Virus record (IMG/VR): IMGVR_UViG_3300042691_023371
Coordinates: 1-37,651 of that record
Source of the DNA: a virus
Length of the DNA: 37,651 nucleotides
Strand: one strand, 5' to 3'
In this document: piece by piece, positions 3,472-37,651 of the stretch
How the letters are laid out: each line of letters starts with the position of its first letter
How positions within the stretch are numbered: the stretch's first letter is position 1
Program-made: the position numbers and the translations under genes
The notes under the pieces: model-generated
Told to the model about the DNA's origin: nothing
Databases searched by the model: none
The model's input: only the letters and a program-made list of their open reading frames with translations

Positions 3472-4701
3472 TTACTGTCCAGTTCCAAACATGGTGCTGA
3501 AAAATCCCTTGTATTCCGGCTTGGGGCCGAGAATGTCAGTCGCCAGAGACTGAGCGTATTCGCGAATCGCCGCAGCCGGATACTTCTTCTTCATCAAATC
3601 CGGCCCCACCGCCGCCGATATCTGCCCGGCCAGTGCGTACTGCATATTGTCATAGGCGTTTGGGTCTTTCGCGAGCAAGCCGCGGTAATGCTGCGCAATG
3701 TCACCAAACAGCGGGTGGCCTGGGTGCAGGAGCGACTCTGTGTCGTTGTCAGCCGCGGCGAGTTGCGAGAGCCGCACGTTGAATCCGCGATCGAATGCAC
3801 GGCGTTCTTCGGCATCAAGCATCGCCGGATCGGCGGCCTTTTCGCTTGCCATCTGAGCCATCTCCATCGCCCCTCGCGCTTGCGCCGCAAACGCAGAGAT
3901 GGGCATCGTCGGGTCTTCGAGAAGAGGCGAGAGATAGTCCCTGGACGATGTCGCACGCGAAGTGTCAGCCTTCTGAAAACCATAAACCTGCGCGTTGATT
4001 TCTTGCTGGCCTGTGATGGTTCGCTCGTTCATCCTCTCTTCACGCGCGCCAGCATCATCGGCCGACCTTTTGGCCCGCCTGGAAATCTTGTTGGCCGTAT
4101 CCCTGGCTTCCTTGAGAGACTTCTCGCCGGCCGCCATGCCCGTCAGCACCATGTGCTGCTTCATGTAGGTGTCACCGATCCGCATCAGCGTCTCGCGGCG
4201 GTCGTTGTCGGTCGCCTCGGTGGCAGAGCGGTACATGAGGTCGGACAGCATCTGCGCCCGGTCGGCCGGCGGTAGGTCGGGCATTTGATGGATGAGGCTG
4301 ATGCTCTGGGAAAGGCTGTTCGAGCCGCCGGCCTGGGCCATCGGCCTGGCCGCCATCTGCCGCCGCTCGCGTAGGGCAGCCGAAGGGGGCGTTGTCATCC
4401 CCTTTATCATCCCCATGCCCTGGTAGGGCTGGGTTTCGTCAATAGCCTGGGGAGGGGCGGGCAGGCCCGCAGCCACCCCAGGCCCGCCAGTGGCGTTAGA
4501 CGCGATCCTGGGGGCAGGGCGGGTCATCGGGTTGGGATTCGAGATATCGCCCCCCCGCTCCGCGTCCCTGGCGGCCATCTCCTCCATAGGGTCAATGACC
4601 GTAGACCGCTTCTGGGGCAGGCCAAAAACGCCGCGGACGGCATTCCTGACCGGCTGGCGGTCTTGGAGGTTGTCGAGGAACGTGAGGATCGGGCCTGCCA
4701 T
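3472..4701 (-). CDS. Helical virion-type protein of unknown function (409 aa)
   Basis: Starts at ATG 4701, 10-15 nt downstream of a clear Shine-Dalgarno (TCAGGAGA on the minus strand), which fixes the start. The product begins MAGPILTFLDNLQDRQPVRN, has a low-complexity Pro/Ala/Gly region to about residue 130, and is then largely charged helix with probable coiled-coil (EATDNDRRETLMRIGDTYMK; KEARDTANKISRRAKRSADD). No membrane segment or catalytic motif is seen. It is the first gene after one of the few real gaps (4702-4750), which carries the ATAAATAGG motif, so it may head a transcription unit with the 88-residue and giant polyvalent genes. An internal head or ejection protein is plausible from location; the sequence does not prove it. 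Confidence 0.75.
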   Translation of the reverse strand: MAGPILTFLDNLQDRQPVRNAVRGVFGLPQKRSTVIDPMEEMAARDAERGGDISNPNPMTRPAPRIASNATGGPGVAAGLPAPPQAIDETQPYQGMGMIKGMTTPPSAALRERRQMAARPMAQAGGSNSLSQSISLIHQMPDLPPADRAQMLSDLMYRSATEATDNDRRETLMRIGDTYMKQHMVLTGMAAGEKSLKEARDTANKISRRAKRSADDAGAREERMNERTITGQQEINAQVYGFQKADTSRATSSRDYLSPLLEDPTMPISAFAAQARGAMEMAQMASEKAADPAMLDAEERRAFDRGFNVRLSQLAAADNDTESLLHPGHPLFGDIAQHYRGLLAKDPNAYDNMQYALAGQISAAVGPDLMKKKYPAAAIREYAQSLATDILGPKPEYKGFFSTMFGTGQ

Positions 4702-4715
4702 AGAGATTCTCCTGA

Positions 4716-4728
4716 CCTATTTATGGGC
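4716..4728 (-). promoter_or_regulatory. ATAAATAGG element, copy 3 (T4-late-promoter-like)
   Basis: On the minus strand this reads GCCCATAAATAGG. The same 13-mer, with at most one change, also lies at 12845-12857 and 33048-33060, each time in a real gap of the leftward block and oriented with it. The core CATAAATA differs at one position from the T4 late promoter consensus TATAAATA. Here it is 15 nt from the ATG of the 409-residue gene, so if it is a promoter the mRNA leader would be very short. A role as mRNA-processing or ribosome-binding context is the alternative. Confidence 0.5.
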
Positions 4729-28653: not shown

Positions 28654-31332
28654 CTATTGGGCCATTGGCGAAGTGTAACGCTGGGCCGGGGCCATCCTGG
28701 CCGGTGGTAAGCCGTACATTGTTGTACCGGCTTCTAATATCCGCCGCAACCTATCATCGCGCTTCTGATAGGCACTGGGCTTATACATCTCATAGTTCGG
28801 ATCATCGGCACGCACCGGATTGCCCCCGAAATCAGTTACCAGGGGATGGTATTCCGGCGGTGTAAACAGGCCGGGGTGCTGGTCTGGGAGGTTTACTTGC
28901 ATGATCGCGGCATTCTGCGGCGTTTCCCCCACGGTATTGGTGCCGATCCTGCCGCCGCCGCGGGCCAATGACTTGGCAACCTTGGCCGCACCGCGGGCCA
29001 TCGACTTCTCGTTGATAAGCGAACCGATAAGGGAGCCGCCGCCAGTAACGCCAGCCAGACCCAACTCGGCAATACCCTGCATATCCGCGAGGTCGCGGGG
29101 ATAGTTCGCTACCATTTCGCCAAACGGCGAGAGGTAGGTCGGCTTTACCGGGGTCATGGGCTTGTCTGGCATTACTGTCTTGCCAGTGAAATCATGCGTC
29201 GCCCCACCGAAAGCCTCGGGTGACATTGCGTATTTCTTGACGAAACTCGGGTACTCGACGCTGGAATACTGCCGTGCCTCGGTATCCAAGTCCTTTAGTT
29301 CGCGAATGATTCCGCGAACTTCCTTGGGGTCAGCCCCTGCCGGATACCGGGGGGTGGTGCGATAGAAATCGTCACGCATCCGGTCGAGCGTTGCCCGGTT
29401 GGCCTCGGGCATATCCAGGTTGTAGAGATACCGCTCGGATAGTTGCTGGTTGTAACGCGGCAGGAAGTTGTCCGCGTTGGTCATCTTCGTGGTTACGCCC
29501 TCAAAGGTGGTCGAGGACAGGCTCGGGTACTTCGCCCCACCCAGGCTATCGCCGGCAGTGCCATCGGGCTGGCCGGTGTACCACCACTGGAGTGCCTCGT
29601 TCATCCGCCCCTGCGGCGTGTTGAACCGACTCGCGGCAAGGTTGTAGGTCTGGGCCGCCCCTCGCGTGTCGCCAACCATATCGAGGGCGAGGCCACCCAC
29701 TGCCGCCAGAGCCTTGCCGGAGTTATTGGCACCAACGGGGCGGTGCGTTCCGTTCTGGAAAGTGGAAAGTAGGTTGTAGACCCGCTCGCTCTGGTAACCC
29801 TGTTCGCCCTGCGGCGTCAGTCGATACCGCGATTCAGCCGGCCCAACCTTGTCGAACTCGGCCGCCTGCTCCGGCGTGGCCCCGGCGTCGAACTCGGTAT
29901 CCGTTGCCCCAGGCTCATAGCGGCCGGGGAGGTTGCTTCGCATCTGGTTGAGGAACCCGTCGCGAAGGGCGATGGCGGTCTTGTCGCTCTCGTCGAATGG
30001 CATCCCCTTGATCGAGGCCAGAGCGTTGTTGACAGACGCCTCGGAGACGATTCCGCTTTTCTTGGCTAACTCGAAATACTGCGCCGGGCTGATGGTGCGA
30101 ACTGCCCCACCGTCATCCTTGATCCGCACCACCGGCATCTGCATCGCTTCATCAACAACGGCATTGAAGTGCCGCATCTCCCGCGTTGGATTCGCCTGGA
30201 AGGCAGCCATATCCTCGGGGGTCAGGTCATCAGAGAACCGGTTGCCGACATACTTCGCGGCACCAGACGCCTTACCCTGGAGGTAATCGCCGGCCTGCCC
30301 AAGCATTCCGAAGAAGGAGTTGTCTTGTTCGCCCTGGCTGGCTGGGGCAGGGGGCGGGGCAGGGGGTGTCGAGAACTTGCTCAACCGATCGCCATAGCGG
30401 TCATCGGCGGAAGCCACACTGCCGCCAAGCCCCATCGCAGCAAGGATGGACGCGATCCGCTTGATGTTGACCGCGTTTTCGTCAAAGACCTTGTATTCGC
30501 GGGTGCCGCCAGTTGGGGCCGGGACGTTGACGCCCTTCTCGGGAATCGTCCCTTCGTACAGTTGGTTTTCGATTTCCTGCGCTCGGAGGATATCGCCATC
30601 TGCCCTCGCCGCCGCCGCCTCGTCTTCCAGCATCTTCATCGGCGACTTGCCGAGAGACTGCGGGCCGTAGCCAGCCCCCGCCCCCCAGCCAGTACCCATC
30701 CGCGATGCCGCCGGGATTCGGGCGTCCTCGACCAACCGGTCTACGATGATCGGCGACAGTTCGTTGCGGAGTGCATCCGCGGCAGGATCGCCGGAGGCGG
30801 CCCACTCCGCGATATTCCTCATCGAGTTTGGGCCTTCGAGCGACGGGTCAACCGTCGGATCAAGGTCGGAGAGTTTGGTGCCGCCAAACCCGCCGTGCAT
30901 CCGCATCGCGTCGAGCCAGAGCAACTCCTGGGTGGACATCGGCTCCCCAGTTATGCCAAGCACATCGACTGGCAAAATGCCGCGGCGTATCCCGATTCTG
31001 TCCAGAGCGTCTTGCACCGCTCGCGTCTGGGAGTTGATCGGAACGTCCAGGTTCAGAATCATCCCAGGATCGCCAACGAACTCTGCCGAATAGTGGCGAA
31101 GGCCAGAGGCGTTCTTGCCTAGCGGCGGGGCGGCCAGCCCCTGGCGAAACAGAACGTCAGGGGCAACGCCGTATTTCTCAACCCAGCGAGCGAGTTGCTC
31201 GTTGCTATGAAAGTCGATGCCCGGCACCGGGTAGTCGTTGACATACACATCGTCGCCGCCAAACTTCTCCACGACGTTGGGCGAATGCTGGTAGAGCATC
31301 TTCGCCGGCGGCTTCTTGCGTCCCTTTGCCAT
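28654..31332 (-). CDS. Polyvalent virion-type protein with divergent N-terminal ADP-ribosyltransferase-like domain (892 aa)
   Basis: ATG at 31332 with TAGGA eight bases upstream. After the basic tag MAKGRKKPPA come features that line up with the ADP-ribosyltransferase domain of phage polyvalent proteins (ART-PolyVal): MLYQHSPNVVEKF (12-24; His in place of H-G-S-P-H), DFHSNEQLARWV (40-51), PGMILNLDVPINSQTRAVQD (89-108; compare the 'YEVDIPD...' segment) and REYKVFDENAVNIKRI (278-293; compare 'NYVVFD...I.I'). The G-x-G-x-Y loop is not clear, so activity is uncertain. Residues 310-892 are low-complexity and helical, with a Gly/Ala hydrophobic patch near 765-785 (GLAGVTGGGSLIGSLINEKS). It lies between another ART-like gene and the scaffold gene. 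Likely a virion-carried effector or structural polyvalent protein; the ART assignment is moderate. Confidence 0.6.
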   Translation of the reverse strand: MAKGRKKPPAKMLYQHSPNVVEKFGGDDVYVNDYPVPGIDFHSNEQLARWVEKYGVAPDVLFRQGLAAPPLGKNASGLRHYSAEFVGDPGMILNLDVPINSQTRAVQDALDRIGIRRGILPVDVLGITGEPMSTQELLWLDAMRMHGGFGGTKLSDLDPTVDPSLEGPNSMRNIAEWAASGDPAADALRNELSPIIVDRLVEDARIPAASRMGTGWGAGAGYGPQSLGKSPMKMLEDEAAAARADGDILRAQEIENQLYEGTIPEKGVNVPAPTGGTREYKVFDENAVNIKRIASILAAMGLGGSVASADDRYGDRLSKFSTPPAPPPAPASQGEQDNSFFGMLGQAGDYLQGKASGAAKYVGNRFSDDLTPEDMAAFQANPTREMRHFNAVVDEAMQMPVVRIKDDGGAVRTISPAQYFELAKKSGIVSEASVNNALASIKGMPFDESDKTAIALRDGFLNQMRSNLPGRYEPGATDTEFDAGATPEQAAEFDKVGPAESRYRLTPQGEQGYQSERVYNLLSTFQNGTHRPVGANNSGKALAAVGGLALDMVGDTRGAAQTYNLAASRFNTPQGRMNEALQWWYTGQPDGTAGDSLGGAKYPSLSSTTFEGVTTKMTNADNFLPRYNQQLSERYLYNLDMPEANRATLDRMRDDFYRTTPRYPAGADPKEVRGIIRELKDLDTEARQYSSVEYPSFVKKYAMSPEAFGGATHDFTGKTVMPDKPMTPVKPTYLSPFGEMVANYPRDLADMQGIAELGLAGVTGGGSLIGSLINEKSMARGAAKVAKSLARGGGRIGTNTVGETPQNAAIMQVNLPDQHPGLFTPPEYHPLVTDFGGNPVRADDPNYEMYKPSAYQKRDDRLRRILEAGTTMYGLPPARMAPAQRYTSPMAQ

Positions 31333-31341
31333 GATTTGTTC

Positions 31342-32556
31342 CTACTGGAGTAGCGAGCCGGCAAGCGGACTCTGCACTGGTGTTTGTTGCTCCTTGGCAC
31401 CATCGGCAAGCAGTGCCGGAGCCAGAAGGGAGTAGGGGTAACGCTTGACCAGTTCCATGATGGACGGGTCATAGACAACGAAGTTTTCGGTGCGGCTCGG
31501 AGAGTTGTCAGGCCGGCTGCGACTGAATGCGTCTGGGTATCTGATTCCTGGGATGCCGCGATCAACCAGGGCAGACTCAAACTCGCCAAGATTCGGATGG
31601 GCAGATGAATCTCGATACCGACTAGGAATCCGCCTGCCGTCAATCAGTTGGCCGGCATTTGGCGGTCGATAGTCTTTCAGCGCGTCATAGAGGTCTGCCG
31701 GCGTATTCCGACCGCCAAGCCACGGCTCTCCGTCGCCGTACACCGTGTCATTCGCCTCTCGGGCAACGTCCATGAGGGCGTCGCGGAGCCAGCCGCGTTG
31801 TTCGCGAATGGGCCGCATGTACTCGACAAAGTTCTCTCGCGGAGAATGGAGATTGAAGTGGTAGGTGAATGCCGGGTCGGACTCCGGCTTCACTCCGGCC
31901 ATTGGCGGCTCTGGCTTCCCGTAGAACGACCGATGATCGTCATAGTGCGGATGCAGGAACGCGAACGACGAAGCCCACTCATCCTTGTTGAAATACGGCA
32001 GGTTGTTGTCTTGCAACTGGAAGAACGAGAGTTGGTTCTGCAACGACCGGCTCGACTGCGGGAGCATTTCGTACATGCGCTCGTAGTACGGAATACTTGC
32101 CTTCCAGGCGTCGCTGTTCCTATATGCCTCTGCCGTGAGGTTGTCTAAGGTCTGCCCGAAGTTTCCGCTGGCGTAGTTGTCGTTGAGAATCTTCTGCCGC
32201 AACTCCCCCAACTCGCGACGCTGCTCTGGGGAAAGACTGAGATGGTCGAGGCTGCCGAAACTCTCGCTGTATGGCTTCCGCATTCGCGACTGCCAATCAG
32301 TCCAGTTGTCATGCTTCCAGGCGCGGCGACGCCATTCGTCAATCGCCGGATTCTGTCGCTCCAGTTTCCGCGTAAACTCGTCGTGGTAGTTCTGGCCGAC
32401 GGCTGGGCTTTCGTAGTTGTAGAGGCCGCCGGTGTAGGAGTTGGCACCCTGGCCCGTCCGCAAGTAATCCAGCGACGGGGCATCAAACTTGTGGGGAGAC
32501 TCATGCCCCACAATCACCATGCCACCCTGGAGCGGGCCGCGGCGTGACTTCGCCAT
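31342..32556 (-). CDS. ADP-ribosyltransferase-like protein (ART-PolyVal type), 404 aa
   Basis: ATG at 32556 overlaps the upstream stop (TGATG); a GTG one codon earlier is also possible. After the basic tag MAKSRRGPLQGG comes VGHESPHKFDAPSLDYLRTG (16-35) and GANSYTGGLYNYES (37-50), matching the 'YHGSPHxFxxF...IGTGEGAQAYGxGLYFAE' core of ART domains in phage polyvalent proteins. The C-terminal part has ALVDRGIPGIRYPDAFSRSR (329-348) and ENFVVYDPSIMELVKRYP (357-374), matching the closing 'GIPGIRYLD...NYVVFD' of the family. Between them lie about 270 residues, far more than the compact domain, largely helical and aromatic. ART domains transfer ADP-ribose from NAD+ to host targets. A target is not inferable. 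It may be injected with the DNA. Domain call is strong; activity is unproven. Confidence 0.78.
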   Translation of the reverse strand: MAKSRRGPLQGGMVIVGHESPHKFDAPSLDYLRTGQGANSYTGGLYNYESPAVGQNYHDEFTRKLERQNPAIDEWRRRAWKHDNWTDWQSRMRKPYSESFGSLDHLSLSPEQRRELGELRQKILNDNYASGNFGQTLDNLTAEAYRNSDAWKASIPYYERMYEMLPQSSRSLQNQLSFFQLQDNNLPYFNKDEWASSFAFLHPHYDDHRSFYGKPEPPMAGVKPESDPAFTYHFNLHSPRENFVEYMRPIREQRGWLRDALMDVAREANDTVYGDGEPWLGGRNTPADLYDALKDYRPPNAGQLIDGRRIPSRYRDSSAHPNLGEFESALVDRGIPGIRYPDAFSRSRPDNSPSRTENFVVYDPSIMELVKRYPYSLLAPALLADGAKEQQTPVQSPLAGSLLQ

Positions 32557-32894
32557 CACGCCCCCCTGGCTTGCTCGAAGAACTCACTTCGCCAGCGGAT
32601 CGCCAAGTCCTGGTGGTAGTGCTTCTGAATCCACCACTGGACGAACATTCGCACCAACTCACCAATGAGCGGGGCGAGAATGAGAAGCAGGATCGAGCCG
32701 TATTCCTGCTTGGCCTTCTCTTTGACGTTAGCGCAAATCGTCTCGAACGAGTCCCCAGGCTGGAACTCTTGCACGACCATCTCGGCTAGTTTCCGGCAGC
32801 GACGCCTTCCAGCCAGATACTTCTTCTTGGGAAGCCCGGCGTAGAACTCGCTTTCGAGTTTCGCGAAAGCCGAAAGATCGTCAGCACGGCCCAT
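32556..32894 (-). CDS. Small membrane protein with one transmembrane segment (112 aa)
   Basis: The likely start is ATG 32894 (MGRADDLSAFAKLESEFYAG), inside the end of the Lys-rich peptide gene; the longer frame back to 33005 is an off-frame reading of that peptide gene. A basic stretch (LPKKKYLAGRRRCRKLAEMV) is followed by a hydrophobic segment at about residues 72-92 (SILLLILAPLIGELVRMFVQ) and a Trp/His/Arg-rich end. One membrane span and a size of about 110 residues would suit a holin or an envelope-interacting accessory protein, but it is encoded with head genes, not beside an endolysin, and no lysis enzyme was found in the window. The stop overlaps the ATG of the ART-like gene. Confidence 0.65.
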   Translation of the reverse strand: MGRADDLSAFAKLESEFYAGLPKKKYLAGRRRCRKLAEMVVQEFQPGDSFETICANVKEKAKQEYGSILLLILAPLIGELVRMFVQWWIQKHYHQDLAIRWRSEFFEQARGA

Positions 32895-32994
32895 TCTTGG
32901 TCGCCATGTTTTCGTAGGCTGCGTTGAACTTGTCTGTGATGTTGGCGGGCTTCTTGGGGGCCGCCTTCTTGCTCTTCTTCTTGGCACTAGCCAT
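32881..32994 (-). CDS. Lys/Ala-rich 37-residue peptide with near-consensus ribosome binding site
   Basis: ATG at 32994 is preceded by AAGGGAGGTGA seven bases upstream, the best Shine-Dalgarno in the window, so this very short frame is likely translated at a high level. The peptide begins MASAKKKSKKAAPKKPANIT and then becomes acidic/aromatic (DKFNAAYENMATKNGPC). The first 16 residues look like a histone-tail or nucleic-acid-neutralising sequence. It is the first gene after the ATAAATAGGG motif at 33048 and a short GC hairpin, and its end overlaps the next start by 14 bp. Possible roles: DNA-condensing virion peptide, or a translated leader that couples to the downstream membrane-protein gene. 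Confidence 0.65.
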   Translation of the reverse strand: MASAKKKSKKAAPKKPANITDKFNAAYENMATKNGPC

Positions 32995-33012
32995 AGACAA
33001 ATCACCTCCCTT
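32984..33012 (-). promoter_or_regulatory. Near-perfect Shine-Dalgarno for the 37-residue peptide
   Basis: The minus strand reads AAGGGAGGTGA (about 33002-33012) followed by TTTGTCT and ATG. Eight or more consecutive bases can pair with the 3' end of 16S rRNA. No other gene in the window except terL has a comparable site, which decides the start and argues for high expression. Confidence 0.7.
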
Positions 33013-33023
33013 CACTCGGATGC

Positions 33024-33060
33024 GCCGGGGGGCCGGCTAGGTTTCGCCCTATTTATGGGC
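33024..33060 (-). promoter_or_regulatory. ATAAATAGG element, copy 1, plus leader hairpin
   Basis: Positions 33048-33060 read GCCCATAAATAGG on the minus strand, identical to the copy at 4716 and one base from the copy at 12845. It begins right after the stop of the nuclease-like gene. Downstream, 33024-33037 forms a small hairpin (GCCGG, four-base loop, CCGGC), followed by the strong ribosome binding site. The arrangement promoter-like motif, hairpin, strong Shine-Dalgarno suggests the start of a highly expressed late unit covering the ART-like, scaffold and capsid genes. Confidence 0.55.
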
Positions 33061-33061
33061 G

Positions 33062-33535
33062 TCAAAACTTCGAGAACGGCAGCGTGTCTACCGGCCGGAG
33101 GTCAGACTGCGGGATATAGAACTGCGGCCCGCGGTTGCTCAAGTCCTGCCAGTACCGTTCCTGTTTCCCCTCGCGACCGTAGAGCCAGCCGCGGATTTTC
33201 CCCACCCCATTGCTCACACAGACCAGGACATAGGGCTTGTTGTCCTCGTCACTCTTGGTCAAGACGAGATGCCCGGTGTCATAGGTGGTCGCTCGAACCT
33301 GGAGCGAACCAACATCGTCGCCGCGAAACTCCCCCGCACCGCACCAGAACACATCACGGTGCTTGGCGACACAGCACTCCCCAACTGCCCCGATGATATC
33401 GAGCAACTCGGAGTCGGCGGTTCGCGCCCCGTAGTATTGCTGCCGCCCCTTGGCTCGGGCGTCAGCCCGCCGAAGCGATCCAGCAATCAGAGCGTGGAGA
33501 TACTCACTGTTCGTCAGTTCGACAACCACCGTCAC
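33062..33535 (-). CDS. Putative PD-(D/E)XK-like nuclease (157 aa)
   Basis: The most likely start is GTG 33535, nine bases after AGGAGG; GTG at 33544 abuts that site and is too close. After a helical N-terminus (YLHALIAGSLRRADARAKGR) the protein has IIGAVGECCVAKHRDVFW (G-E at 52-53), then FRGDDVGSLQVRATTYDTGHL (D73/D74, Q79-V-R81), the order helix-GE, D-x(4-6)-[EQ]-x-[KR] seen in PD-(D/E)XK-fold proteins of phages. The third residue is Q-V-R instead of E-x-K, so catalysis is uncertain. Beta strands follow (KPYVLVCVSNGVGKIRGWLY). It could be a DNA nuclease or a resolvase-like or Cas4-like fold; I do not recognise a named family. It overlaps the upstream gene by about 30 bp. Confidence 0.65.
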   Translation of the reverse strand: MTVVVELTNSEYLHALIAGSLRRADARAKGRQQYYGARTADSELLDIIGAVGECCVAKHRDVFWCGAGEFRGDDVGSLQVRATTYDTGHLVLTKSDEDNKPYVLVCVSNGVGKIRGWLYGREGKQERYWQDLSNRGPQFYIPQSDLRPVDTLPFSKF

Positions 33536-33797
33536 AGCAACCACCCTCCTGGCGATCAGCGATTCCCTTCAACGCCCCAACGATTTCGTCTCGCACCTCA
33601 ACATTGTCCAGGGCTTCGACTGCCCCGCAGAGTTGGCTGGCGAATGACTTCCGTTCCTCGTTCCAGAGTTTCTCCCTGGCGACTTGGCTACGGAGACGGG
33701 TGATTTCATCGAGAGCATCCCCAGCAATCTTCGCGAATGCCGGTTCGCCACAGTGATGCTTCATCATTTCCAGGGAATCACGAACGTCCTGGGTCAT
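33504..33797 (-). CDS. Small coiled-coil protein with a Cys-rich C-terminus (97 aa)
   Basis: The preferred start is ATG 33797 (MTQDVRDSLEMMKHHCGEPA), with TGAGG eight bases upstream that is also the stop of the preceding membrane-protein gene; this indicates translational coupling. An in-frame start ten codons earlier overlaps that gene. The body is a charged helix (DALDEITRLRSQVAREKLWN; ALDNVEVRDEIVGALKGIAD), and the end is GGCCDGGCRTDEQ, a possible metal or redox Cys cluster. No family is recognised. It is encoded with small early-in-block genes upstream of the head module. Confidence 0.65.
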   Translation of the reverse strand: MTQDVRDSLEMMKHHCGEPAFAKIAGDALDEITRLRSQVAREKLWNEERKSFASQLCGAVEALDNVEVRDEIVGALKGIADRQEGGCCDGGCRTDEQ

Positions 33798-34374: not shown

Positions 34375-34661
34375 GCCCCATTTGGAAAACGGGGAAAATA
34401 TCGGGAGCGGGACGTAACAAGTCATGGGCTGGGCCGGGGGGGCCGCGGGGCCGCGACGCAACCCCTTTGCTGCCAACGACTTACGGCAACCCCGGCGGAA
34501 CGCTGACGGCTCCGGCCCCCGTTTCCCGCGGCCGATCGAGTGCCGTTGCCCGGTTCCTGGTCGCCTTCCCCCCGTGCGCGCCGCGGCCCCGCGCGCCCGC
34601 TGCGCGCGCCCCGCCTGGCCTTCGGCCAGCGGTGCGCGCGCCCGCGTAAACCCCCTCGGCG
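34375..34661. other. Non-coding GC-rich spacer with imperfect hairpins
   Basis: No gene can be supported: frames are open only because stop codons are rare in such GC-rich DNA. It contains an inverted repeat centred on CTGGCC-ttc-GGCCAG (34615-34629), extended outward by GCGCGC arms (about 34600-34641), giving a very stable stem. The remainder shows nothing I can interpret. Confidence 0.5.
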
Positions 34662-34932
34662 GCCCCGGCCCCGGCCCCCGGCCGTCGCCCTGGCCGTCGC
34701 CCTGGCCGGCGGCCCCGGCCCCGGCCCTGGCCGTCGCCCTGGCCGTCGCCCTGGCCGGCGGCCCCGGCCCCGGCCCCGGCCGTCGCCCTGGCCGTCGCCC
34801 TGGCCGGCGGCCCCGGCCCCGGCACCGGCCGTCGCCCTGGCCGTCGCCCTGGCCGTCGCCCTGGCCGGCGGCCCCGGCGGCCCGCCCTGGCCGTCGCCCT
34901 GGCCGGCGGCCCCGGCCCCGGCCCCGGCCCCT
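34662..34932. repeat. Higher-order GC-rich tandem array (49-bp units built from 12-bp and 25-bp blocks)
   Basis: The array is made of a 12-bp block GGCCGTCGCCCT and a 25-bp block GGCCGGCGG followed by CCCCGG-type filler. Pairs of the 12-bp block plus one 25-bp block form a 49-bp unit beginning at 34680, 34729 and 34778. A fourth copy (34827) has three 12-bp blocks and a variant long block, and a last partial copy runs 34889-34932. Because 49 is not a multiple of three, the reading frame rotates from unit to unit, so the long open frames across it are not proteins. Confidence 0.85.
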
Positions 34933-34939
34933 GGAAACG

Positions 34940-34971
34940 AGAAAAGCCCCCCCGGCCGGAGCCGGGGGGGC
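34940..34971 (-). terminator. Intrinsic terminator of the 165-residue gene
   Basis: A perfect 11-bp stem GCCCCCCCGGC / GCCGGGGGGGC with a four-base loop lies at 34946-34971. On the minus strand it is followed by TTTTC (complement of 34941-34945), the standard layout of a rho-independent terminator. It stands about 35 bp after the stop of the coiled-coil gene at 35007 and would insulate that gene from the late block. Confidence 0.85.
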
Positions 34972-35006
34972 GATCGTCTCGCGTCGGGTTGTCGATCGTC
35001 CCCGGT

Positions 35007-35504
35007 TCAACCGGCGGCGGTCGGCTCGGCCAGATGGTCGGCGGCCCATGTAGCCGCGGCGGCCAGAACGGCGGGGTTCTCGACCCGCCATTGCTGGACG
35101 TAGGCGAAGTCGCCGATCGTGGCGTCAAGGCCGCTCGTCGGCCGTTTGCCCCCTCGGCCGTCCGACACGAACCGCCGCTCATAGTCCTCCCTGACGTATC
35201 GGCGGCCGTCGCTGCCGACCTTCACGGCATAGTCGAACCGCCGGCCGTTCGGGAGGATGGCGCACGCCTTGGCGACGATTCCCGCCTTCCGATCGCCTTC
35301 ACTCAGTTCGGTGATGGGATGGAATCCGGGCGTCTTTCCCGTGGTGGCCTTGGCGGCGGCGTCGCGTTCGGCCTTGGCCTTGTCGGCGTCGGCGCGGGCG
35401 GCGTCGCGTTCGGCGACAAGGGCGTCGCGTTCGGCTCGGAGCCGCTGCAACTCGGCGGCGGCGTCCAGGGGAAGGGCGGGGGCGGTGGTTGCTTTCGGGG
35501 GCAT
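35007..35504 (-). CDS. Coiled-coil phage protein of unknown function (165 aa)
   Basis: ATG at 35504 with GGAGA eight bases upstream. The N-terminal part (about residues 14-50) is an Ala/Arg/Glu heptad coiled-coil (AAELQRLRAERDALVAERDA; ARADADKAKAERDAAAKATT). The C-terminal domain (FHPITELSEGDRKAGIVAKA; NGRRFDYAVKVGSDGRRYVR; EDYERRFVSDGRGGKRPTSG) is a small mixed fold that ends with a helix rich in Ala/Trp. No family is known to me. It is a single-gene unit: its own upstream control element (35575-35590 on this strand) and its own terminator. Position in the divergent control region suggests an early or regulatory role; coiled-coil would allow dimerisation. DNA binding is not evident. Confidence 0.75.
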   Translation of the reverse strand: MPPKATTAPALPLDAAAELQRLRAERDALVAERDAARADADKAKAERDAAAKATTGKTPGFHPITELSEGDRKAGIVAKACAILPNGRRFDYAVKVGSDGRRYVREDYERRFVSDGRGGKRPTSGLDATIGDFAYVQQWRVENPAVLAAAATWAADHLAEPTAAG

Positions 35505-35574
35505 CGTCAGTTCTCCATCCGGGGGTTGGTTGTTAGAGCGTCGCCGGCCCGGCCCGGCACCGCTCTACCCCCTA

Positions 35575-35590
35575 TCTCTACACACCCCCC
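35575..35590 (-). repeat. Left arm of 16-bp inverted repeat (control element, leftward)
   Basis: Reads GGGGGGTGTGTAGAGA on the minus strand, 71 bp upstream of the ATG of the 165-residue gene. Identical to the arm at 35774-35789 on the plus strand. Shared orientation relative to both genes suggests a common promoter core or operator. Confidence 0.75.
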
Positions 35591-35773
35591 CACGATTTCC
35601 CGGCGGCGGCTGCCGCGATTTCCTGGCGGCGGTTGCTTTGTAACGCGGCCGGCGGCCGGCGGTTGCTTCCCTGCTAGGTGCTACTAGCACGGTGCCGGTG
35701 CCGGCGGCTTTCGGCTTCCCGGCGGGATGCCAGTAGTAACCGGCGTTTTGACTGTGTTTTGTCTGTGTTACTA

Positions 35774-35789
35774 GGGGGGTGTGTAGAGA
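35774..35789 (+). repeat. Right arm of 16-bp inverted repeat (control element, rightward)
   Basis: Reads GGGGGGTGTGTAGAGA on the plus strand, 57 bp upstream of the clamp-like gene. Preceded by the CTGTGTT direct repeats. A degenerate third copy, GGGGTGTGGAGAG, lies at 37139-37151. Confidence 0.75.
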
Positions 35790-35846
35790 CATTCCCCCGG
35801 TGGGTCGATCGGTTTCGCCCCGCCATTCCCCCTGGAGTCTCTTGCA

Positions 35847-36473
35847 ATGATTCGTCTTCCCAAGTTCATTCGGTCGATCGTCGGGTGTGCTGACGCAACG
35901 TCCTCCCGCTACGCCCTTGGTGGCGTCAACGTCGAGGTCGCTGACGGTGTGGTCAACCTCACGGCAACTGACGGTCGCATCCTGGTCAATGTGTCCTACG
36001 GCTCTGAGTCATCGCAGCCGGTCAACACGATCGTCAACGGCAAGGCTCTTGCCAAGGCGTTCGGTGCGGTGTGCAAGGCGAAGTGCGACGAGCGGATGGA
36101 GATGTCGCTGGTCAATGCCACCCCGGTGGCGATGGTCTACGGAAAGAAGTCGCCGGTGCCGATGGTCGCCGATGTGGTCGAGGGTCGCTTCCCCCGGTGG
36201 CGCGATGTCTTCCCCGATATGACGCCCAAGTTCGCCATCCGGCTCGACTGCGAGTTGCTGGCGAATCTGTGCAAGGTGTTTGTCGAGGCCGGAGCGTCGC
36301 GTGCCACGTTTCACTTCACCGATGAACACTCCGCGGTGCGGATCGACGCCAAGGCACCAACGGGCGAAGTGATTCGGGCCGTCGCGATGCCGGTGGCAAC
36401 GGAGAACGGCGGTTCGATGCCGGCTCCGCTCGGTGGTTTCCAGGTCGATGCGTCGGTGGCGGCGGCCGGTTGA
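35847..36473 (+). CDS. DnaN-like sliding clamp, two-domain size (208 aa)
   Basis: ATG at 35847 with CTGGAG upstream. The sequence lines up with the middle and end of bacterial DNA polymerase III beta clamps: RYALGGVNVEVADGVVNLTA-TDG (21-43; compare RYxLNGxxxE...ATDGHRLA), VNGKALAKAF (63-72), VVEGRFPRWRDVFP (110-123; compare VDGRFPDYRRVLP), AIRLDCELLANLCKVF (130-145) and a final VIRAVAMPVA (175-184; compare the YVVMPMR end). Bacterial DnaN is about 370 residues with three domains; this has room for two, the size of T4 gp45 (228), which forms a trimer. It would encircle DNA and tether the polymerase. First gene of the rightward unit. The clamp call is by motif order and is fairly strong; oligomeric state is inferred. 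Confidence 0.75.
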   Translation: MIRLPKFIRSIVGCADATSSRYALGGVNVEVADGVVNLTATDGRILVNVSYGSESSQPVNTIVNGKALAKAFGAVCKAKCDERMEMSLVNATPVAMVYGKKSPVPMVADVVEGRFPRWRDVFPDMTPKFAIRLDCELLANLCKVFVEAGASRATFHFTDEHSAVRIDAKAPTGEVIRAVAMPVATENGGSMPAPLGGFQVDASVAAAG

Positions 36474-36481
36474 TTCCAGGG

Positions 36482-36526
36482 GGCGACGCTCCCCGGTCGG
36501 CAACTTCGCCGGCCGGGGGCGTCGCC
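36482..36526 (+). terminator. Strong hairpin between clamp gene and next gene
   Basis: A stem of about 19 bp (GGCGACGC... / ...GCGTCGCC) with one bulged T, one G-U pair and an AACTTC loop begins 9 bp after the clamp stop and is followed by GTCTTTC. It is a partial terminator or attenuator, or a 3'-end stabiliser; the poor U tract argues against complete termination. The next gene starts 26 bp later. Confidence 0.6.
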
Positions 36527-36551
36527 GTCTTTCACCAAAGGGGTTTCTGTC

Positions 36552-37139
36552 ATGGGCGAGTATGCAAAGTTCGGTGGTCGCGAGGTCAAGATCGGAACGT
36601 GCGAGGATATGTGGTATCTGCGCTACGATCAGCGTTCCAAGGTGTCGCCGCTGCCCGGCAACGTCGATCCGGTTCGCGATGCGGCGGCTCTCCGTTTCCG
36701 TTTCCCGTGGCCCGACGAGGATGCCAAGAATCCCGGCGACTTCGAGGACTATGGCCGGGGTATCGGCGTCACGGTTGATTTCCCGTGGATGCGGGAGTCG
36801 ATCGACCACTACACCGTGCAGTTCATCAACACGGAGTACGGGCTGAACGTGTGTCTGCCCTGCCCCGAGGGTGCCAAGGCGATGGACGGGGTGAAGATTC
36901 ACCGGAACGGCTACCGGGGAAACGTGGTCATCCGGCAGCAAAGACTCCATGAGGGGCGGCTTGTCATCGTCTGTGAGTGTGGTTCGTGCGGCGCGGCGTT
37001 TCGTCTTCCCGATTGGGAGTCTGCGATGCCCGTGTTCATGGCAATCAACGCCAAGGCAGAGTTTCGGTGCGAGGTAGACGATGCGGGGTTCTACCGACAG
37101 ATCGCCAAGCGTATCGCCGACGGGTACGGGGTGGCGTAG
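36552..37139 (+). CDS. Cys-containing protein of unknown function (195 aa)
   Basis: ATG at 36552 with AAAGGGG eleven bases upstream. The N-terminal half is aromatic and acidic (GTCEDMWYLRYDQRSKVSPL; PGDFEDYGRGIGVTVDFPWM). The C-terminal half has CLPC (101-104) and CECGSCGAAF (141-150), two Cys pairs that could form a zinc site, then a helical end (DAGFYRQIAKRIADGYGVA). No family is recognised. It lies between the clamp-like gene and the conserved 137-residue gene. The leader AAAGGGGTTTCTGTCATG is almost identical to that of the next gene. A nucleic-acid-associated role is possible given the zinc-like site and neighbours. Confidence 0.7.
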   Translation: MGEYAKFGGREVKIGTCEDMWYLRYDQRSKVSPLPGNVDPVRDAAALRFRFPWPDEDAKNPGDFEDYGRGIGVTVDFPWMRESIDHYTVQFINTEYGLNVCLPCPEGAKAMDGVKIHRNGYRGNVVIRQQRLHEGRLVIVCECGSCGAAFRLPDWESAMPVFMAINAKAEFRCEVDDAGFYRQIAKRIADGYGVA

Positions 37140-37151
37140 GGGTGTGGAGAG
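37139..37151 (+). promoter_or_regulatory. Third, degenerate copy of the GGGGTGTGtAGAG control element
   Basis: Reads GGGGTGTGGAGAG, 12 of 13 bases matching the two arms at 35577-35589 and 35776-35788, and in the same orientation relative to the downstream gene. It overlaps the stop codon of the 195-residue gene and lies 76 bp before the ATG of the 137-residue gene, a spacing similar to the other two copies (57 and 71 bp). Confidence 0.5.
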
Positions 37152-37227
37152 TTGATTTTCCGGGGTGGTGGCGGTGGTCGGCACGGTGCCGGCCCCGCCC
37201 TACCCCCTAGCACAAAGGGTTTCTGTC

Positions 37228-37641
37228 ATGGATTCAAAGATTGCTGCGAAGTGGGTTGCCGCGCTGCGGTCGGGTCATTACGTCCAGGCCAAGGGTACGC
37301 TCCGCGGCCCGGCGAACGAAGACCCCGGTGCCGTTGGGCATTGCTGTCTCGGTGTGCTGTGCGACTTGCACAAGGAGTTCATCGAGTCCCAGGTCGGTGT
37401 CGGCGGCGTTGTCGATTGGTTGCCTAACGCCCACAACGAGCCGGGAGTGACTCGCGTGTGTGCCTACCGGTGCGGGGCGTTCCAGGCCGAGGGGGTTTTG
37501 CCGGTGCCGGTGCGCGAGTGGGCCGGGCTGGGGTCGATCAACCCCAGTGCCGGGGGCAACTACCTCACCGAGTTGAACGATGGGTGCCAATCGTTCGACC
37601 AGATCGCTTCGTTCATCGAGGCGAACGTCGAGAGGCTCTGA
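37228..37641 (+). CDS. Conserved phage protein of CCLGVLCDL type (137 aa), function unknown
   Basis: The correct start is ATG 37228 (MDSKIAAKWVAALRSGHYVQ), eight bases after AAAGGG; an upstream GTG in frame at 37165 lacks a ribosome binding site. The pattern KWVAALRSGHYVQAKGTLRG, HCCLGVLCDLHKEF, VREWAGLGS, and the ending LTELNDGCQSFDQIASFIEANVERL is a widespread small-protein family of phages and some bacterial plasmids ('...WxxALRSGxYxQGxGxL...YCCLGVLCDL...LNDxGxSFxEIAxFIE'). Its role is not known. Cys residues of CCLGVLC and further Cys at about 74-78 could bind metal. Third gene of the rightward unit, with its own control-element-like motif upstream. Confidence 0.85.
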   Translation: MDSKIAAKWVAALRSGHYVQAKGTLRGPANEDPGAVGHCCLGVLCDLHKEFIESQVGVGGVVDWLPNAHNEPGVTRVCAYRCGAFQAEGVLPVPVREWAGLGSINPSAGGNYLTELNDGCQSFDQIASFIEANVERL

Positions 37642-37651
37642 GTCCCAAGGG

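Follow-up and report, generated by a model that had tools for sequence, protein, structure and literature searches.

Late promoters of phage T4 have the form TATAAATA and depend on gp55 and the clamp. Among small phage proteins, protein J of phiX174 is a basic DNA-binding virion peptide of an ssDNA phage, and gp79 of phiEco32 is an example of a small regulator. The phiEco32-like podophages have their own sigma factor and a single-element late promoter without a -35 box; in phiEco32 itself this factor, gp36, reads the promoter of middle and late genes (PMC8948821). ART-PolyVal is a domain of proteins predicted to enter the host with the injected phage DNA (PMC5512222).

Here, we analysed a 37,651-base virus record (the window, meaning that whole stretch) in which a very short reading frame lies between a promoter-like element and a larger partner gene (Table 1). 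This arrangement, at the head of a structural-gene block, is almost invariant in about two dozen uncultured phages. As in the phiEco32-like phages, a single conserved element without a -35 box lies upstream of late genes in the window lineage. Six of the larger genomes encode a putative sigma factor, which is matched only weakly. The element itself differs in sequence (tAATGTAtA in phiEco32 versus CCATAARYA here), as do most of the genes (PMC8948821), and the portal protein of the window weakly resembles SU10-type portals (E 0.08).

Table 1. Features of the window and, in the last row, loci of the sigma-like protein in related contigs.
Feature	Position	Strand	Basis
Microgene, 37 aa	32881..32994	-	exact frame, family conservation, pN/pS
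Shine-Dalgarno AAGGGAGGTGAT, near-complete complement of the 16S 3' end	33001..33012	-	rank 1 of 3191 starts
Promoter-like element GCCCATAAATAGGG, no -35 box	33047..33060	-	19 of 20 aligned leaders; genome-wide excess; no sigma-70 match
Another copy of the element, right before the 409-aa gene at 3472-4701	4715..4728	-	pattern search
Upstream gene, 160 aa, ends at the element	33062..33544	-	phrog_18407
Partner gene, 112 aa, all-helical, no own Shine-Dalgarno	32556..32894	-	homologues come right after the microgene in relatives
Next gene, 405 aa, N terminus like the ADP-ribosyltransferase of polyvalent proteins	31342..32559	-	G014 protein, 33% over 45 aa
Gene of 892 aa, similar to the remainder of that polyvalent-like protein	28654..31332	-	26% over 265 aa, E 7e-8
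Major head protein, 376 aa	26429..27559	-	phrog_9953, E 3e-11
Clamp-like protein, facing away from the late block	35847-36473	+	family match: DNA_pol3_beta, phrog_947
Sigma-like protein in relatives	L124:6980-7498(-), L137:5149-5661(+), L128:10877-11395(-), L131:18598-19110(+), L141:1062-1580(-), L122:15760-16266(+)		weak Sigma70 r2/r4

Read along the minus strand, the locus consists of AAGGGAGGTGAT-TTGTCT-ATG, then the frame for the peptide MASAKKKSKKAAPKKPANITDKFNAAYENMATKNGPC and a TGA stop (32994..32881), with 6 bases between the end of AAGGGAGGTGAT and the ATG. The 22 nt 5' of the start are predicted to form a duplex of -17.9 kcal/mol with the 16S tail, the strongest when all ATG, GTG and TTG starts on both strands of the window are ranked by duplex energy, and GGAGGTGAT is a 9-nt exact match to that tail, the longest in the window. 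The nearest rival among the gene starts of the window belongs to a 567-aa gene (-17.3), and no other comes close, bearing out an earlier note on this DNA that had credited the microgene with the best ribosome binding site. In some relatives (L112 and L116) a strong Shine-Dalgarno-like string lies ~25 nt from the microgene start, with weaker GGGG or GAGG strings closer to it.

A portal protein search yielded 80 related viral contigs. By profile search, 24 of 40 related records, the window not counted, contain a homologous frame whose start and stop are intact, and a scan of 2.9 million viral contigs with a degenerate DNA motif added one microgene contig (L179), while 4 of its 13 contigs were chance matches within long unrelated genes. 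The family thus counts 26 records including the window, some of them near-duplicates, with 21 distinct peptides. Family members measure 32-57 aa, their frames unbroken and their lengths differing by whole codons, and pN/pS values of 0.03-0.53 among closely and moderately related pairs indicate purifying selection on the frame. The homologous frames and this selection confirm that the 37 codons are a real gene, as had been claimed, and the same microgene, which the earlier note proposed to look for before capsid modules of related phages, is what these 26 records contain. We therefore regard the microgene and its expression architecture as almost certainly genuine.

The partner gene directly follows the microgene in every record read out. 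Twenty-six records have the partner gene and 24 of them the microgene as well; of the other two, G005 ends at the contig edge and G038 has no microgene. In the latter (contig L118) and in a Planctomycetia metagenome-assembled genome (MAG; G046, contig L184), the element, the leader and a Shine-Dalgarno-like GGGGGTGATC are kept and the partner gene comes next, indicating that the microgene is dispensable in those two. Loss of the frame where the ribosome binding site persists, which had been named as evidence against the gene, is therefore seen in these two relatives but not generally. The 567-aa gene, a packaging gene, also has one relative in a Planctomycetia MAG, so the host, judged from a metagenomic bin, may be a planctomycete; among 397 genomes of the class of the MAG, the partner gene found a strong match only in that MAG and weak ones in 3 others. 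Genomes of the relatives measure 59-62 kb, placing the lineage at ~60 kb, and G001 and the window are one and the same phage (100% over 1-24953 and 99.7% over 34707-37651). Near the point where the match to G001 resumes, the window has a GC-rich 49-bp tandem array (34657-34929; 5.5 copies, 91% matches).

The microprotein has a Lys-rich N terminus followed by a helix, consensus (I/L)KDKFNAAYEKM; most relatives further carry a Cys-rich tail, for example CDCGGKGCSKCDCGK. M1, Y27 and M30 (numbering of the window copy) are invariant. In L112, L116 and L117, the nearest relatives, and in the window copy itself the protein ends in GPC or GPCR, so that the Cys cluster is absent there. In the AlphaFold2 model of the window copy (mean pLDDT 69), residues 19-34 form a helix and the N terminus is disordered. 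The net charge is +7 in the window copy and +5 to +12 across the 20 members counted. Family scans and PDB profile searches gave no convincing match in Pfam, PHROGs, NCBIfam or PDB, and tblastn among 50,697 named phages found no match to the microprotein, the partner, the head protein or the microproteins of relatives. A hit to the pectate lyase N terminus (PF04431; 17.7 against a cut-off of 26, E 0.0045) was set aside as most likely compositional, arising from a Lys/Ala-rich stretch. No Pfam, PHROG or NCBIfam match supports a histone, H1-like or protamine-like identity, and the likeness to a histone tail that had been suggested is one of composition only; conservation is highest in the helix, and a Cys cluster is present in most relatives. 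DUF6321 proteins (PF19846) are likewise small, basic and Cys-containing, but their motifs differ, and no match to this family was obtained with the microproteins of the window, L102 or L109. In the AT-rich relative L087, a DUF6321 gene that does match PF19846 and encodes a small Lys/Cys protein lies directly upstream of the microgene. Judged by sequence, the microproteins are a new and unnamed family, ordinary in kind among phage microproteins.

Partner proteins are 112-129 aa long. In the window the 5' end of the partner gene overlaps the 3' end of the microgene by 14 nt and its own Shine-Dalgarno reaches just -3.3 kcal/mol, which suggests that the partner is probably translationally coupled to the microgene; many relatives instead have a gap of a few bases between the two genes. 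The AlphaFold2 model of the partner family is all-helical (pLDDT 85, pTM 0.81), and a fold search with it returned no match (best E 2.0 in PDB). A basic end, WWRRRK...WRRKW, is kept in most of the family. Further downstream, the 405-aa and 892-aa genes both show similarity to one G014 protein of 919 aa, itself a weak match to ART-PolyVal (PF18760) below the cut-off. With these ART-like genes and then the major head protein following, the microgene does stand before a capsid module, as the earlier note had placed it.

The promoter-like element is recognisable as CCATAA in 19 of 20 aligned leaders (CCATATA in one), with the flanks [TC]G[TC]CCATAA[AG][TC]A[AG]GG, 19-86 nt from the start codon. 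Other upstream columns of these 20 leaders are less conserved, save the T-run and stem of a terminator, and none forms a conserved -35. The exact pattern has 18 matches in 16 records (~670 kb, some duplicated) against ~2.6 expected, and 17 of the 18 were seen by inspection to lie just 5' of a start codon. CCATAARYARG is present at ~1-2 copies per genome before gene starts, including two in the window, 16106 and 31568 in G014 and 4047 in G020. Searches of the window region found no sigma-70 promoter at the microgene site, and the leader has no Rfam match. The promoter-like element noted earlier is thus real and conserved upstream of the gene, but it is not of the sigma-70 type. In many relatives a strong terminator hairpin (fold z -6 to -7) immediately precedes the element, which suggests that transcription starts afresh there. 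In the window, the element comes right after the stop codon of the 160-aa gene. G007, G008, G010 and G033 carry a variant of the element, GCCCATAAACTGGGC (e.g., G008 28128, minus strand). This short inverted repeat nearly touches the ATG of a gene of 83 aa that lies a few hundred bases 5' of the microgene, which may mean that this gene starts without a leader or is under different control.

A conserved sigma-like protein is encoded in six larger genomes, G001 included, and measures 171-173 aa where fully read. It weakly matches Sigma70_r2, Sigma70_r4 and a sigma PHROG (best Sigma70_r2 E 9e-4, below the cut-off) and is a candidate for reading the CCATAARYA element. Given this protein and a conserved element that lacks a -35 box and often follows a terminator, the microgene is likely to be the leading cistron of a late operon, comprising the head and packaging unit, that a phage sigma transcribes in these ~60-kb uncultured phages. 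T4 late promoters are also single -10-like boxes without a -35, CATAAATA of the window is one base off TATAAATA, and the clamp-like protein of the window is a further point in common; however, the elements of relatives drift away from it (CATAAGCA and others), neither gp55 nor gp33 was identified here, and what the sigma-like protein has is an end resembling region 4. A late promoter of the T4 type, dependent on a clamp, is nevertheless possible. A search for a T7-type RNA polymerase found none, but the control search was also matchless, so its absence is not proven.

Taken whole, the explanation that the microgene is coding, forms the first cistron of a late operon, is driven by a phage sigma and serves packaging, the head or ejection stands for us in even balance. 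Its mechanism would begin with a phage-encoded sigma-like factor that directs host RNA polymerase to the single element [TC]G[TC]CCATAA[AG][TC]A[AG]GG. The near-perfect Shine-Dalgarno would then give very high microprotein output, and translation of the microgene would couple to that of the partner, which has no such site. By its composition, the Lys tail may bind nucleic acid, the helix may bind a partner, for which the co-translated helical protein is the likeliest choice, and the Cys tail of most relatives may bind metal or form disulphides. The genomic position of the microgene favours packaging, head filling or ejection, and we tentatively propose an abundant accessory of DNA packaging or head filling, or a cargo ejected with the neighbouring polyvalent ART-like proteins. 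More speculative is the fuller picture, which we think rather doubtful, of undescribed Lys-rich, mostly Cys-rich and possibly metal-binding late microproteins that are paired with a novel all-helical basic protein in packaging or ejection and switched on by a new single-element promoter class with a lineage-specific sigma.

Other roles for the peptide can be weighed on the same evidence. It could be a host-directed or regulatory protein that, like small regulators such as phiEco32 gp79, targets RNA polymerase, ribosomes or the nucleic acid of host or phage, a use suited to a small basic protein with a helix and a Cys cluster; single members weakly resemble Zn- or metal-binding families below cut-off (MZB, E 0.016; CopL, E 0.28), and dispensability in two relatives is typical of accessory host-interaction genes. 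However, the microgene heads a block leading to head and packaging genes rather than an early region, keeps one partner gene throughout and lacks the conserved Cys cluster in the clade of the window, so we consider such a role unlikely and count the anti-host factor raised in the earlier note as unsupported. That note also proposed a head-internal peptide, like phiX174 J or protamine, that neutralises the charge of packaged DNA. By general features the microprotein and J are alike in size, strong basicity and place before capsid genes, and the Lys-rich N terminus and very high predicted translation agree with this, but J is basic throughout and has neither the conserved helix nor the Cys tail of this family. 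Moreover, ~60 kb of DNA carries ~120,000 phosphates, and full neutralisation at +7 per peptide would take ~17,000 copies, an arithmetic that makes bulk neutralisation unlikely. With the helix rather than the Lys tail most conserved, and the Cys cluster left unexplained, a neutralising peptide seems improbable to us.

Two further readings shift the weight to the partner gene. The partner might be a small membrane protein in a membrane or lysis module, with the microprotein as its regulator, given the hydrophobic character of its central helix in the window and the majority of relatives (KD19 maximum 1.8-2.4). This reading we find very improbable: in the divergent G012, G014, G024, G030 and G039, KD19 is only 1.1-1.6, leaving no clear membrane segment, while the strongly basic WRRKW end is conserved, and no lysis gene was recognised near the microgene. 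For the same loss of hydrophobicity in several relatives, we do not take the partner to be a holin by default. The microgene might instead be a leader cistron that mainly loads ribosomes and couples partner translation, its peptide being unimportant, in keeping with a strong Shine-Dalgarno on the microgene and none on the partner, the overlap in the window and the two relatives that fuse the leader straight onto the partner. Purifying selection on the amino-acid sequence, conservation over deep divergence with whole-codon length changes and the non-overlapping spacing in many relatives make this least probable of all.

These results indicate that even a gene which routine callers miss for its shortness can rank among the steadier features of a lineage of uncultured phages, and they put the microgene forward as a candidate, open to test, for a phage protein made in large amounts. 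The more interesting parts are the pairing of promoter and sigma and the constant partner; the probable late promoter of this lineage is a searchable 14-base signal.
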